Source: Acidimicrobiia bacterium (lineage in GTDB: Bacteria; Actinomycetota; Acidimicrobiia; Acidimicrobiales; AC-14). Taken from it: a DNA stretch of 60,602 bases. The notes under the pieces are model-generated. The model was given only the letters and a program-made list of their open reading frames with translations, did not search any database and was not told where the DNA came from. Positions 5,698-45,712 of this stretch are shown here, piece by piece. The position numbers and the translations under genes are program-made. Each line of letters starts with the position of its first letter. The stretch's first letter is position 1. The stretch is taken from positions 1 to 60,602 of the forward strand of contig JAHFUP010000022.1 of NCBI GenBank assembly GCA_023265025.1, written 5' to 3'.

Positions 5698-6651
5698 GTG
5701 CCCTATGTTCTGAGGCGCGCCCTCCTGGTGATCCCCACGCTGCTGGGGATCTCCTTCCTGGCGTTTGCCCTCGCCAATCTGGCGCCGGGGGATCCGGCGG
5801 AGCAGGTGCTCCGCCGGACCTCCGACCGCCAGCCCACGAAGGCTGAGGTCGCCGAGAAGCGCAACGAGCTGAAGTTGGACCGCCCGCTCGTCGGCCAGTA
5901 CGTGGCCTGGGTGGGGCGGGCGGTCCGGGGCGACCTGGGCGTGTCCTACGCCACCCGGCGGCCGGTGGTCACCGAGCTCCGCCACCGCGTCCCGTACACC
6001 CTGCAGCTCACCTTGCTGGCCGCCCTGCTGGCCCTGGCCATCGCGGTGCCGGCGGGCATCGTCTGCGCGCTGCACCGCAACAAGCTGTTCGACCAGTTCG
6101 CCCGCCTCCTGTCACTGGCGGGGGCGTCGATGCCCAGCTTCTGGCTGGCTCTGAGCCTCATCGTGCTGTTCGCCGTGCGCCTGTCCATGGTGCCGGTGGC
6201 GGGACGGGGCGGGTGGAACAGCTACATCCTGCCGGTCGTCACCCTGGCGGTGACACCGGCCGCGGTGTTGGCCCGCTTCACCCGCTCGACCATGCTCGAG
6301 ATCCTCGACGACGACTACATGCGCACGGCCCGGGCCAAGGGGCTGACCGAGTGGGGCACCGTCGTCTCCCACGGCCTGCGCAACGCCCTCGTGCCCCTCC
6401 TCACCGCCTTCAGCATCAGCCTCGGCCACCTGCTGGCCGGCGCCGTCATCGTCGAGACCATCTTCGTGTGGCCGGGGGTGGGCAAGCTGGCTCTCGACGC
6501 CATCACCGAGCGGGACTACCCGATGATCCAGGGCTTCGTGCTCTACGCCGGCGCCACCTTCGCCGGCATCAACCTGCTGGTCGACCTCGCCTACGGGGCC
6601 ATCGACCCCCGGATCAAGCGGGCCGGGGCTCCGACCGTGGCGACGCGATGA
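5698..6651 (+). CDS. ABC transporter permease, DppB family
   Basis: A 317-aa inner-membrane permease with about six transmembrane segments. It has the DppB-type N-terminus MPYVLRRALLVIPTLLGISF and the EAA loop AKGLTEWGTVVSHGLRNAL that contacts the ATPase. GTG start at 5698, directly after the binding-protein stop. Its stop overlaps the next gene by ATGA, showing one operon. Confidence 0.92.
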   Translation: MPYVLRRALLVIPTLLGISFLAFALANLAPGDPAEQVLRRTSDRQPTKAEVAEKRNELKLDRPLVGQYVAWVGRAVRGDLGVSYATRRPVVTELRHRVPYTLQLTLLAALLALAIAVPAGIVCALHRNKLFDQFARLLSLAGASMPSFWLALSLIVLFAVRLSMVPVAGRGGWNSYILPVVTLAVTPAAVLARFTRSTMLEILDDDYMRTARAKGLTEWGTVVSHGLRNALVPLLTAFSISLGHLLAGAVIVETIFVWPGVGKLALDAITERDYPMIQGFVLYAGATFAGINLLVDLAYGAIDPRIKRAGAPTVATR

Positions 6652-7556
6652 CAACCGCGGACGTCGTCTCGGCCGAGGCCGCGATCGTCACCATCCCCGC
6701 CGGCCAGCCGCCCCACCGGACTCGGCTGCTGGCCGGGCTGCTCCGCGACCGCACCGCGATCTTCGGCCTGGTGCTGGTCGCCATCCTGACCCTCGCCGCC
6801 ATCTTCGCCCCGCTCCTCGCCTCCCACGACCCCAACGCGGTCGACGTGGCGCGGAAGTTCCTGCCCCCGTCCCGTGAGTTCCCGCTGGGCACCGACCACC
6901 TCGGCCGCGACGTGTTCGCCCGGATCGTCTACGGCGCCCGCCTGTCGATCGGCTCGACGCTGGCGGCATCGGTGGCCATCTCCTTCATCGGCGTGCTCGT
7001 CGGCCTGATCGCCGGCTGGTTCGGTGGCATCACCGACACCCTCATCAGCCGGGTGATCGACATCCTGCTGGCCTTCCCGACGTTCCTGCTGGCGCTGGCC
7101 GTCACCGCCATGCTCGGCCCGGGCCTGCGCAACGTCCTGGTCGCCATCATCCTGGCGTGGTGGGCGAGCTACGCCCGGATCGTGCGCAGCGCGGTCCTGG
7201 CCGAGAAGGACAAGCCCTACATCGAGGCGGCCCGGGCCTGCGGCAGCCCGTCGATGCGCATCCTCCTGCGCCACCTCCTGCCCAACATCGTCGCCCCCAT
7301 CGTGGTCCTGACCACCCTCGACCTGGGCGCCGTCCTCCTCAGCCTGTCCGGGTTCTCGTTCCTGGGCCTGGGCGTGAAGCCGCCCACCGCCGAGTGGGGG
7401 TCGATGCTCAGCGAGGGCCGCACCTACCTCAGCCGGGCGCCGAACATGATGTTCTATCCGGGCGTCGCCATCTTCCTGATGGTCCTCGGCTTCAACCTCC
7501 TGGGCGACGGCCTGCGCGACATCCTCGACCCCCGCACCCGGGGCGGCCGGCGCTAG
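6648..7556 (+). CDS. ABC transporter permease, DppC family
   Basis: A 302-aa second permease. The start is ATG 6648 overlapping the previous stop; the reading frame is open further upstream but that part is a shadow of the DppB gene. The N-terminal segment LRDRTAIFGLVLVAILTLAA and the EAA loop ARACGSPSMRILLRHLLPNI are typical of DppC. The operon ends here: no ATPase genes (DppD/DppF) follow, so the transporter must borrow ATPases coded elsewhere. Its TAG stop lies inside the CTAG end of the 201-bp repeat. Confidence 0.92.
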   Translation: MTTADVVSAEAAIVTIPAGQPPHRTRLLAGLLRDRTAIFGLVLVAILTLAAIFAPLLASHDPNAVDVARKFLPPSREFPLGTDHLGRDVFARIVYGARLSIGSTLAASVAISFIGVLVGLIAGWFGGITDTLISRVIDILLAFPTFLLALAVTAMLGPGLRNVLVAIILAWWASYARIVRSAVLAEKDKPYIEAARACGSPSMRILLRHLLPNIVAPIVVLTTLDLGAVLLSLSGFSFLGLGVKPPTAEWGSMLSEGRTYLSRAPNMMFYPGVAIFLMVLGFNLLGDGLRDILDPRTRGGRR

Positions 7557-7753
7557 TGCCTCGACCTCATTCGTTCGCTTCGCTCACTCCATTCCGTCGA
7601 AGTGATCGTGCTCCGGCGGGCGAGCGGAGCTCGCGCCGCCTCCGCCCTGTCCCTCTCTCCTCTCCGCAGCCGGAGGGGCCGCCTTCGGCGGCGACGGCGG
7701 CCACGGACTGGAAACCCCACGAACGCGGCGAACGTTTGCGGTCAGGGCGCTAG
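7553..7753 (+). repeat. 201-bp CTAG-bounded repeat, copy 1
   Basis: This stretch matches the reverse complement of 44478-44678 over its whole 201 bp with 9 mismatches (about 95.5% identity, aligned by eye). Both ends are CTAG and the ends are imperfect inverted repeats (CTAGTGCC / GGGCGCTAG here; perfect 8-bp CTAGTGCC / GGCACTAG in copy 2). The left CTAG holds the TAG stop of the permease gene and the right CTAG holds, on the other strand, the TAG stop of the hydrolase gene. Inside are a GCCGCC-TTC-GGCGGC hairpin and a GCGAGC-GGA-GCTCGC hairpin. No coding function is seen. It could be a non-autonomous mobile element or a bidirectional terminator cassette. Confidence 0.9.
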
Positions 7754-8751
7754 GGACGGAGCACGCGCCCGGCCCAGGCCGCCATGGTGTCGAGGGCCAC
7801 GGGCGACATGGGCCGGCGCAGGCTCTCCAGGCTGACCCGCTCCCACACCCGCGTCACCTCGTCGGCGGGGGTGGGGTTGAAGTAGTGGTCGAGACCGGCG
7901 ACGACGCTGAGCTGCACCGCGTCGTTGCCGGCGTCGCGGAGCGCCCGGTAGGCGGTGAGGGCGTCGGCCACGCGGACGTTGAGATCGTTGCCGCCGTGGA
8001 GGATCAGCGCCGGGCACCGGACGTGGCGAAACTCCGCCGCGTACTCGGTGGCCATGTCTTGCAAGCCCCGGCTGGTGCGCATTGTCAGGGTGACGCCCCG
8101 GCCTTCGAGGGTGACGGTGGGCTCGCCGGCCCGAATGGCCTCCAGGTACCGCTCGACACCCTCGGCCCGCACGAGCATGGCCGGCAGGTTCTTCTCGATC
8201 CAGGCCCGCTGCTCGGCCGTGAACCGGTTCCAATACTGGTCGACCCGGCCGAAGTTGTCTCGCATGAGGCCCTCGATCGACGACGCCAGCCCGCCGAGCA
8301 GCAGGGCGGCGGCCACGTCGGGGTCGTCCCGGCACACGTGGCAGGCGGTCAGCACGCCGGCGCTGTGGCCGCCGATGCCGACCCGGAGGAGGTCGATCTC
8401 GTCCTGGGCCCGCAGCCAGGCCACGGCGGCGAGGGCGTCCTCCAGGTCGGTGCCGTAGTGCGAGTCCTCGGCACGCCCGCCCGAGGCGCCGAACCCCCGC
8501 CGGTCGTAGCGGAGCGTGGCGACGCCGGCGCCGGCCAGCCGGTGGGCGACGCGGCGCAGGGTGCCCGGTGCCGGGAGGTCGGGCGTCCCCGGCGGCCAGC
8601 CGGGCTCCAGGTCGCCGTCGCGGGTGTCGGCACCCGACCCCTGCAGCAGGACGATCGCCGGCGCCGGCCGGCGGGCGGACGCGTCCTCGGGCAGGCACAG
8701 CACGCCGGCCAGCCCGAACGCGGAGGGGACCGTGACGTCGCGCTCGCGCAC
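7750..8751 (-). CDS. Alpha/beta hydrolase
   Basis: A 333-aa serine hydrolase of the alpha/beta fold. The nucleophile elbow is GIGGHSAGVLTA, the oxyanion region IVLLQGSGADTRDGD, and the C-terminal His is in VVAGLDHYFNPTP. RYDRRGFGAS is a family block. There is no signal peptide. GTG start at 8751 lies 4 nt after the stop of the dienelactone-hydrolase-like gene, so the two are co-transcribed. Substrate unknown; esterase or peptidase activities are both possible. Its stop codon is provided by the right CTAG of the repeat. Confidence 0.85.
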   Translation of the reverse strand: MRERDVTVPSAFGLAGVLCLPEDASARRPAPAIVLLQGSGADTRDGDLEPGWPPGTPDLPAPGTLRRVAHRLAGAGVATLRYDRRGFGASGGRAEDSHYGTDLEDALAAVAWLRAQDEIDLLRVGIGGHSAGVLTACHVCRDDPDVAAALLLGGLASSIEGLMRDNFGRVDQYWNRFTAEQRAWIEKNLPAMLVRAEGVERYLEAIRAGEPTVTLEGRGVTLTMRTSRGLQDMATEYAAEFRHVRCPALILHGGNDLNVRVADALTAYRALRDAGNDAVQLSVVAGLDHYFNPTPADEVTRVWERVSLESLRRPMSPVALDTMAAWAGRVLRP

Positions 8752-13410: not shown

Positions 13411-13430
13411 CCCCCGAGCCGCGTACCTCC

Positions 13431-13480
13431 CGATTTGGCTGCAGCTACGTGCCTATAGGCACGTCAGTGCAGCCAAATCG
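13431..13480. repeat. Palindromic repeat family, copy A
   Basis: A 50-bp inverted repeat with 25-bp arms, 22 of 25 paired, starting CGATTTGGCTGCA and ending TGCAGCCAAATCG, with centre ACGTGCCTATAGGCACGT. It lies 20 nt after the small-gene stop and 14 nt before the convergent DUF1918 stop. It is related to copies at 40220-40268 (opposite orientation of the unpaired bases) and 47129-47178. In this place it could act as a bidirectional terminator. Confidence 0.85.
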
Positions 13481-40219: not shown

Positions 40220-40268
40220 CGATGTGGCTGCACTGACGGCCCTATTGGCACGTAGCTGCAGCCAAATG
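40220..40268. repeat. Palindromic repeat family, copy B
   Basis: Starts 2 nt after the tyrA stop and ends 8 nt before aroA. Left arm TGGCTGCACTGACGGCCCTA, right arm GGCACGTAGCTGCAGCCAAA. The unpaired triplets CTG and GCT of copy A appear here in swapped arms, so copy B lies in the opposite orientation to copy A. Confidence 0.82.
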
Positions 40269-40276
40269 GGGGGGGA

Positions 40277-43823: not shown

Positions 43824-44481
43824 GGCGCGAGTGGCGGTGCTGGCGGTGGTGGCGTTGCTCCTGGCCGGCGCCGGGGTCGGCGTCGCCCTGACCCGTGACG
43901 GCGACGAGAAGGTGGTCGCTGCTCACGTCGAGGAGACGACCACCTCGACGTCCACGACCGTCCTGGCGACGACGTCGACGGTGACCGCCACCTCCTCGCC
44001 GGCGACGACCGTCGCACCGACCACCACTATTCGCCGGCCCACCACGACGGCCCGGGCGACGACGACCACCACGAAGCCGGCGACGACGACGACGGCCGCC
44101 GGCGGCCGCTGCACGCCGGCGCAGGTCGAGGTCAAGCTCACGACCAGCAAGCCGTACTACGCCGCCGGCGAGGCGATGGAGTTCACCACGACACTGCGCA
44201 ACAAGTCCGCGGCGCGGTGCCCGAACGGCGGCTGGGCCGTGCAGGTGATGTTCCGGGACGACGCCGGCCACACATTCCCCGGAGTCGGCGTGAGCGCGTC
44301 CACGGTCGCCGGCGCATCGTTGGGCCCGGGCGCGGTCCTGACCCACTCGGGCGCATGGGACCACCGGGCTTGCCCCCAGCCCGGCTGTGCCCCGTTGCCG
44401 CCCGGGCCGGCCTACGTCGTCGTGACCTGGTACTTCGAGAGCTACGTCTACGACCTGACGCAGAGCTTCATTCTCACCTAG
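43813..44481 (+). CDS. Exported Thr-rich protein with BsuPI-like outer domain
   Basis: A 222-aa protein with an N-terminal membrane helix (ARVAVLAVVALLLAGAGVGV), a 55-residue Thr/Ser/Ala stalk and a C-terminal beta domain with four Cys (GGRCTPAQVEVKLTTSKPYY, ARCPNGGWAVQV, HRACPQPGCAPLPPGPAYVV). The outer domain resembles that of the preceding gene and, loosely, BsuPI-type inhibitor folds. Stop TAG lies in the CTAG of repeat copy 2. Confidence 0.7.
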   Translation: MVVTARVAVLAVVALLLAGAGVGVALTRDGDEKVVAAHVEETTTSTSTTVLATTSTVTATSSPATTVAPTTTIRRPTTTARATTTTTKPATTTTAAGGRCTPAQVEVKLTTSKPYYAAGEAMEFTTTLRNKSAARCPNGGWAVQVMFRDDAGHTFPGVGVSASTVAGASLGPGAVLTHSGAWDHRACPQPGCAPLPPGPAYVVVTWYFESYVYDLTQSFILT

Positions 44482-44678
44482 TGCCCTGACCACAAACGTT
44501 GGCCGCGTTCGTGGGGTTTCCCGTCCGTGGCCGCCGTCGCCGCCGAAGGCGGCCCCTCCGGCCGCGGACACGAGGGAGGGACAGGGCGGAGGCGGCGCGA
44601 GCTCCGCTCGCCCGCCGGAGCACGATCACTTCGACCGAATGGAGTGAGCGAAGCGAACGAATGAGGTCGAGGCACTAG
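44478..44678 (-). repeat. 201-bp CTAG-bounded repeat, copy 2
   Basis: Inverted copy of 7553-7753 with the same 201-bp length. Its ends CTAGTGCC and GGCACTAG are perfect 8-bp inverted repeats and the similarity of the two ends extends further (12 of 14 bases). The left CTAG supplies the stop of the gene at 43813-44481; the right CTAG supplies, on the other strand, the stop of ispH. Confidence 0.9.
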
Positions 44679-45712
44679 CGGGCGAGGGCGTCGAGCACGT
44701 CGCTCGCCGCCCGCTGGCGGTCCTCGGCGAAGGCCGACCGGGCCGGCGGGGGAGCGCCCAGGGTGATGCTGGCGACAGCATCGAGGGCGGCGAGCAGCTC
44801 CCGAAGCTCACGGGGCGGCGGGAAGTACTCGTCCTCGGTGGTCACGGCGACCTCCTCGACCCCGTGCGCCGGGTTCAGGCGGGCGATCACCTCCCGCACC
44901 AGCTCCTCGGGCGCGGAGGCGCCGGCGGTCACCCCGACGACACCGGACAGGTCGTCGGGCAACTCGTCGGCGCGGTTGACCCGGTAGACGCGGGGGCAGC
45001 CGGCGTTGCGGGCCTCCTTCTCCAGGGCCACCGTGTTGGAGGAGTTGGCCGACCCGATGACCACGATGGCGTCGGCTTTCCCGGCGATCTCGGTGAGGGC
45101 GGACTGGCGGTTGGTGGTGGCGAAGCAGAGGTCGCTCTTGCCGGGCATCCAGAGGTCGGGGAACCGCTGCCGGGCGGCGTCCAGCACGCCGGCCCAGTCC
45201 TGGTGGCTCAGCGTCGTCTGGGCCAGCAGCGCCACCGGGCCGCCGGGGTCGGGCAGCGCGGCGACCGCGTCCTCCGACTCGACGAGGTGGATCGACTCCG
45301 GGGCCACCGCCATCGTGCCCACCGCCTCGTCGTGGCCCTCGTGGCCGACGTAGAGGATCGAGAACCCCTTGCCGGCCCGCACCTTGACCTCGTGATGCAC
45401 CTTGGTCACCAGCGGGCAGACGGCGTCGACCACGAACCCGCCACCGGCGCGGGCGGCCTCGACCACTTCGGGAGCGGAGCCGTGGGCGCTGAGCATCAGG
45501 GGAGCGCCCGGCGGGACCTCGGAGACGTCGTCCACGAAGACGACGCCCAGCTTGCGGAACCGGTCGACGACCAGGCCGTTGTGGACGATCTCGTGGTAGC
45601 AGTACACCGGCGGCTCGAAGACCCGGACCATCCACCCGAGCGCCTTGATCGCCATCTCCACGCCGGCGCAGAAGCCCCGCGGCGCGGCCAGCAGCACCCG
45701 GTCGACGTCCAC
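44675..45712 (-). CDS. ispH: 4-hydroxy-3-methylbut-2-enyl diphosphate reductase
   Basis: A 345-aa iron-sulfur enzyme, last step of the MEP isoprenoid pathway. The three cluster cysteines are in LLAAPRGFCAGVEMAIKAL, VVDAVCPLVTKVH and SDLCFATTNRQ. EIVHNGLVVDRF and SANSSNTVAL supply substrate contacts. GTG start with TAGGCT 6 nt upstream. Divergent from the DUF512 gene. Confidence 0.95.
   Translation of the reverse strand: MDVDRVLLAAPRGFCAGVEMAIKALGWMVRVFEPPVYCYHEIVHNGLVVDRFRKLGVVFVDDVSEVPPGAPLMLSAHGSAPEVVEAARAGGGFVVDAVCPLVTKVHHEVKVRAGKGFSILYVGHEGHDEAVGTMAVAPESIHLVESEDAVAALPDPGGPVALLAQTTLSHQDWAGVLDAARQRFPDLWMPGKSDLCFATTNRQSALTEIAGKADAIVVIGSANSSNTVALEKEARNAGCPRVYRVNRADELPDDLSGVVGVTAGASAPEELVREVIARLNPAHGVEEVAVTTEDEYFPPPRELRELLAALDAVASITLGAPPPARSAFAEDRQRAASDVLDALAR

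Follow-up and report, generated by a model that had tools for sequence, protein, structure and literature searches.

A 201-bp repeat lying between convergent stop codons in an Acidimicrobiia genome is very probably a MITE of the IS630 family that inserts into CTAG

The window, by which we mean the whole stretch of 60,602 nucleotides of Acidimicrobiia DNA that was analysed, contains two copies of a 201-bp repeat at positions 7553-7753 (copy 1, plus strand) and 44478-44678 (copy 2, minus strand), which are inverted relative to each other and which, as had been predicted from inspection of the sequence, are of the same length and differ at nine positions (95.522% identity over 201 positions). Copy 1 is preceded by an ABC transporter permease gene (OppC_N and BPD_transp_1; 6648-7556, plus strand) that ends exactly on the left TAG of the repeat, and is followed by an alpha/beta hydrolase gene (7750-8751, minus strand) that ends exactly on its right TAG. 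Copy 2 is located between a gene for a 216-aa protein (43831-44481, plus strand), ending exactly on the first TAG, and a LytB gene (44675-45712, minus strand), ending exactly on the second. Pfam searches named three of these four genes and returned zero matches for the product of 43831-44481, an ORF for which a similar sequence is present at the corresponding position in G001 and G002, two genomes of the same genus as the host. The CTAG tetranucleotides at 7553-7556, 7750-7753, 44478-44481 and 44675-44678 coincide with the four gene ends, and the gene coordinates therefore bear out the original prediction that at both copies the element extends precisely from the stop codon of a plus-strand gene to that of a minus-strand gene, its terminal CTAGs supplying both TAG stops.

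Copy 1 as delimited here includes flanking target bases (C-TA, 195 bp, TA-G). Its left terminal inverted repeat (TAGTGCCTCGACCTCATTCGTTCG, TA included) occupies 7554-7577 on the plus strand and its right terminal inverted repeat, likewise with the TA included, 7729-7752 on the minus strand, while the TAs at 7554-7555 and 7751-7752 represent the putative target duplication, as judged from copies elsewhere with unequal flanks (see below). A search of the window against Rfam at the gathering score produced a tRNA as its only match.

The repeat is a small transposon that itself carries no genes, present in more than 50 copies in the host genome, the assembly of which (5.45 Mb in 185 contigs, 98.41% complete) was searched in several ways. 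At least 41 matches were obtained in a DNA search in which the best 40 of 341 candidates were scored, and a core motif, one mismatch being tolerated, was encountered at 53 places. Four further places, for a total of 57, comprise one at a contig edge (C9:34808) and two internally deleted copies (C30:54131 and C38:89285), these three being retrieved by a search with the outer ends, as well as an additional cut copy (C143:1-119). Six of them are truncated at the end of a contig (three left and three right parts) and could represent as few as three copies, so that the 57 places correspond to at least 54 distinct copies. The genome-wide search that had been suggested along with the prediction thus yielded 57 places, so the pair in the window is not a product of chance. 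The median pairwise identity of 97% among 41 aligned copies points to a fairly recent spread. When the host and 59 relatives were searched, with the best 13 candidates scored per genome, 18 relatives contained matches to the repeat; among the matches listed, coverage reaches 144 of the 201 bases at most, the best having 76% identity (G034).

The left and right ends of the repeat are imperfect inverted repeats, matching at 19 of 24 positions, with 195 bp between the TAs and no transposase gene within. A pattern representing these ends, allowing at most two mismatches, is present in 93 of the 397 genomes of the order, host included, with 29 matches in G206, 27 in G111 and 18 in G013 (0, 0 and 1, respectively, for a reversed control); since the reversed control scores in many genomes too, many of the single matches may be due to chance. 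In G322, two such matches face each other across 1226 bp (L277) and enclose a gene of 374 aa with DDE_3 (PF13358, E-value 5.5e-16), HTH_32 and HTH_29 domains, whose product is a transposase of the IS630 type. Further insertion sequences (ISs) with such ends measure 1226 bp (L293), 1216 bp (L296) and 1242 bp (L312), and the four transposases are 39-72% identical, the last three being assigned by similarity only. The L277 IS comes from a different genome within the order, and its end agrees with the 24-bp right end of the family at 23 of 24 positions, an end of L293 agreeing at 22 of 24; the left end of the family matches the IS ends at 20 of 24 positions at best. Alignment of the interior of the repeat (inside the terminal 35 bases) to the four ISs gave no alignment with an E-value below 0.1. 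Ends that are shared and an interior that is unrelated are what usually connects a MITE with its IS, and we are highly confident that the repeat is a MITE of the IS630 (Tc1/mariner) family which inserts into the TA of CTAG with duplication of that TA. An abundant intergenic repeat of one Acidimicrobiia genome is thereby accounted for, and it has relatives elsewhere in the order.

Judging by its ends, the repeat is probably moved by an IS630-type transposase; mobilisation is something that we infer, because no match to DDE_3 (PF13358) was obtained in the host assembly, at a completeness of 98.41%, the control being positive in 3 of 14 genomes. The mobilising transposase would thus have been lost from the host or be located outside the assembly. 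An autonomous element in the host was also sought with a pattern of the outer 14 bases, which returned only copies of the repeat and C100:3939, seemingly unrelated, and this candidate was rejected, as PF13358 was not matched either. An origin from IS200/IS605 or RAYT elements (REP/BIME) was likewise rejected: such elements have subterminal hairpins and no terminal inverted repeats, and terminal inverted repeats of the kind common to DDE elements were found instead.

With respect to the target site, 36 of the 44 left ends listed read CTAG, while of the other eight four adjoin an IS110-type element and the remaining four are TCAG, CTCG, CGAG and TTAG. The prediction had held that CTAG is duplicated upon insertion, a view contradicted by several copies whose left and right tetranucleotides differ and have only the TA in common, namely TTAG/CTAG (C176 and L280), CTAG/CTAC (L309), CTAG/CTAT (L310) and CTAG/CTAA (L311), even if in any one copy a single later mutation could mimic this pattern. 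From these unequal flanks it appears most likely that TA rather than CTAG is duplicated; the CTAG at either side would then be completed by the first base (G) and the last base (C) of the element itself. The inner base at the right CTAG is frequently something other than A, in which case it tends to be the same as the one preceding the left CTAG; a duplication of 4 or 5 bp was for its part rejected, though not fully, considering that the inner base varies among families elsewhere, that G before CTAG is common and that TA fits.

The joined flanks of 23 copies were searched in G001 and G002, giving 81 matches from which 30 loci were compared, the window copies being examined additionally. Alignments crossing the junction were obtained for 11 copies, and at all 11 of these loci the element is absent from the relative (G001 or G002). 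Four of them represent clean single sites (copy 2, C10:99579, C58:1774 and C143:901), reading a single CTAG, CTAA or GTAG, and the other seven are too gapped or altered for a clean single site to be recognised. The anticipated empty allele with a single CTAG was encountered for copy 2, where one CTAG is common to both convergent stops in G002 (G001 has TTAG instead), but not for copy 1, at whose site in G001 the plus-strand gene ends in CTAG and the minus-strand gene ends in TGA approximately 70 bp further. In line with the prediction, the repeat does look like a mobile element with inverted ends that inserts at CTAG and leaves both neighbouring proteins intact. Two copies carry flanking repeats that TA duplication does not account for, these being an 11-bp direct repeat at the C103 copy (L088, C103:19919-20111) and an imperfect repeat of approximately 30 bp at the C60 copy (L077, C60:63112-63305).

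A mechanism may be proposed on the basis of what was observed directly, i.e. the copies, their ends, the autonomous relatives with the same ends, the empty sites, the depletion of CTAG and the contexts of the copies. An IS630-type DDE transposase would recognise the ends of the element and excise it, and the element would then be inserted at the TA of CTAG with duplication of this TA, its chemistry presumably being that studied for ISY100 and IS630. With an element proper that starts with G and ends with C, insertion into C-TA-G would give CTA-G...C-TAG, and any TAG stop using the target CTAG, on either strand, would be rebuilt from the T and A of the target and the G of the element. The host genome is GC-rich and strongly avoids CTAG; of the CTAGs left in it roughly one in three touches a stop and most are intergenic. 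Copies would accordingly collect at gene ends, above all between convergent genes, insertion being least harmful there.

In 783,793 bases of the host, CTAG outside the copies was counted 154 times versus 2027 expected from base composition, an approximately 13-fold depletion for a background taken near copies. Genes were predicted with a codon model of the host (coding fraction 0.86), and 34 of these 154 free CTAGs fall in predicted genes, 50 touch one stop, two touch two stops and 68 are elsewhere in intergenic DNA. That the copies collect at gene ends is explained by the remaining CTAGs being largely intergenic, with about a third of them at stops. None of the 41 two-ended copies is inside a predicted gene. 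When exact contact is required, five of them touch two stops, 17 touch one and 19 touch none, although some lie close to the end of a contig, so that an adjacent gene could have escaped prediction; stop contact therefore amounts to 22 of 41, or 23 of 41 with 10-base slack at one end. Exact stops occur at 15 left and 12 right ends of these 41 copies (15 each if the right end is allowed a tolerance of 10 bases), and in a broader set of 53 copies that takes in cut ones, at 17 left and 13 right ends, with both in five.

Copies at gene ends could instead be functional 3'-end elements (RNA hairpins or terminators), of whatever origin, that are kept there by selection, a reading which we regard as rather unlikely. 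Folding would agree with it, since both strands of the repeat fold better than all 200 dinucleotide shuffles (z of -4.13 and -4.31), yet elements with inverted repeats fold well anyway, and despite this good folding a scan covering copy 1 found no terminator-like site (GC-rich stem with a U-run) on either strand in 7400-7900, so the bidirectional terminator role put forward in the original prediction was not corroborated. The numbers of left and right stop ends in the host are closer to equal and provide no clear polarity. A polarity, which would speak for such a role, is apparent in G111, where a homologous element of 201 bp is matched at least 41 times. Among the best 30 of these loci, read in both orientations, the left end coincides exactly with a predicted gene stop 18 times, and the right end does so in one of 15 that could be judged; tandem gene pairs in G111 have 14 copies along the genes and three against. 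The G111 polarity is based on the codon model of the host (coding fraction 0.89 when applied to G111, with 9 of 12 ends being stops), and a model trained on approximately 50 kb of G111 placed none of 12 ends at stops but had an implausible coding fraction of 0.62. For G013, 1 of 10 ends is at a stop with the codon model of the host (coding fraction 0.28) and 3 of 10 with its own (coding fraction 0.71). In G206, against a role as 3'-end element, 2 of 16 left and 2 of 11 right ends are stops, for 16 of 30 loci used, most of the loci left out matching only the middle or the right end.

It is conceivable, if doubtful, that in some lineages the MITE acts as a portable, orientation-dependent gene-end module that is kept when its left end follows a gene, and a similarly tentative part of that reading is that the MITE arrives at a TAG stop and rebuilds it. 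Two left ends in G111 (L325 and L330) now read TGA, as if selection kept the stop while CTAG decayed. The gene-end copies in any event offer a test of whether such repeats turn into 3'-end signals. A search for the left-end pattern in named genomes returned 12 stretches, one of which holds a related element, in Acidimicrobiia nzgw83 (L210), the other 11 being from other phyla or from Microbacterium, with the four that were examined representing other repeats. The nzgw83 element is shorter, measuring 103 bp from CTAG to CTAG; its ends are related, and, judged by eye only, the adjacent frames resemble convergent genes that stop at both CTAGs. L112, from G005 of the host's family, is the same locus as L210.

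The prediction had further proposed a transposon with specificity for stops that overlap or converge, and with duplication of CTAG, which we judge to be very unlikely. Five of the 41 two-ended copies, including both window copies, are indeed located between two TAG stops, and such two-stop sites are enriched relative to free intergenic CTAGs (5/41 versus 2/120, p = 0.012), as are convergent gene pairs (13/33 versus 18/102 for free CTAGs, p = 0.016). Stop contact as such, however, is not enriched (22/41 versus 52/120 of the free intergenic CTAGs, p = 0.28), the convergent excess can reflect selection against insertion into promoters and operons, and the 17 copies at one stop and above all the 19 at none make a stop-codon-specific target too strong a claim, the target being CTAG. 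A CTAG target combined with selection for harmless sites is the simplest reading, in which target choice together with the tetranucleotide bias of the host steers insertions to gene ends, where they do almost no harm, the stop codons being rebuilt by the G and C at the ends of the element. A retroelement-like insertion with a fixed left end and a variable right end and target duplication, for which several right-truncated copies and the above-mentioned 11-bp and approximately 30-bp flanking repeats might speak, is hardly credible in view of the inverted repeats at both ends (common to DDE transposons), the left-truncated copies that are also present (C10:5674, C31 and C125) and the presence of CTAG no further than 12 bases from either end in most two-ended copies, and it was dropped once autonomous IS630 relatives proved to share the ends.

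IS630 preferentially targets the TA in CTAG, as Tenzen and Ohtsubo reportedly found in 1991. This targeting (PMC6811581), like the duplication of TA by the family, is already in print according to the portions of the sources available to us. The IS630 of Shigella sonnei thus resembles the MITE, as far as those portions go, in its type of transposase and its target, but is a full IS with a gene, whereas the repeat described here consists of 195 bp without a gene, has its own ends and resides in Acidimicrobiia. ISY100, an IS630/Tc1/mariner element of Synechocystis, is comparable in having terminal inverted repeats, a transposase of the same family and a duplicated TA, and differs in that the accessible part of its description gives TA dinucleotides as the target and does not describe a link to stop codons (PMC2170065). 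RUP of Streptococcus pneumoniae, a non-autonomous MITE of IS630-Spn1 with 107 bp and 108 copies, is likened to the repeat by its description, i.e. ends resembling those of IS630-family ISs and a TA target, but inserts into IS-containing regions, and no link to CTAG or stop codons is described in the sections available (PMC2229807). MITEPsy1 of Pseudomonas syringae, a 100-nt MITE, similarly inserts after CTAG or YTAA, but in the part of the source at hand is listed as 'IS5?', possibly derived from ISPsy2, with a 4-nt duplication being reported (PMC3189936). Avoidance of CTAG is known elsewhere, for example in Haloquadratum, to go by an excerpt of the source (PMC3119063). Our literature search found neither a report linking IS630 or MITEs with CTAG and stop codons nor a description of IS630 or MITEs in Acidimicrobiia, which in both cases is weak evidence of absence.

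Several other repeats were observed to adjoin copies of the MITE. An IS110-family transposase gene (DEDD_Tnp_IS110 and Transposase_20; L083:8007-9161) belongs to an element that adjoins a MITE end exactly at GGCACT/AG, and the IS110-type end sequence adjoins five more MITE copies (L084, which is cut at a contig edge, L096, L098, L102 and L103). Five of the six matches to this IS110-type end motif in the host stretches scanned are at a MITE end, the exception being L062, and it looks as though the IS110-type element uses the MITE end as its own target. An intergenic palindromic repeat of approximately 50 bp (CGATTTGGCTGCA..TGCAGCCAAATCG) is present in the window at 13426-13480 and 40220-40274, has many matches in G001 and adjoins the MITE at C44 and C176. 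Another repeat family (GAGGCAATCGTGCT.. or CATCAAGGTGCTCC.., with a core that is 71-77% alike) was encountered at L061:13246-13340, L063:5896-5989, L066:336-425, L087:10151-10241 and other sites; it adjoins the 201-bp element in places, and similar sequences are present in G002, G007 and G034.
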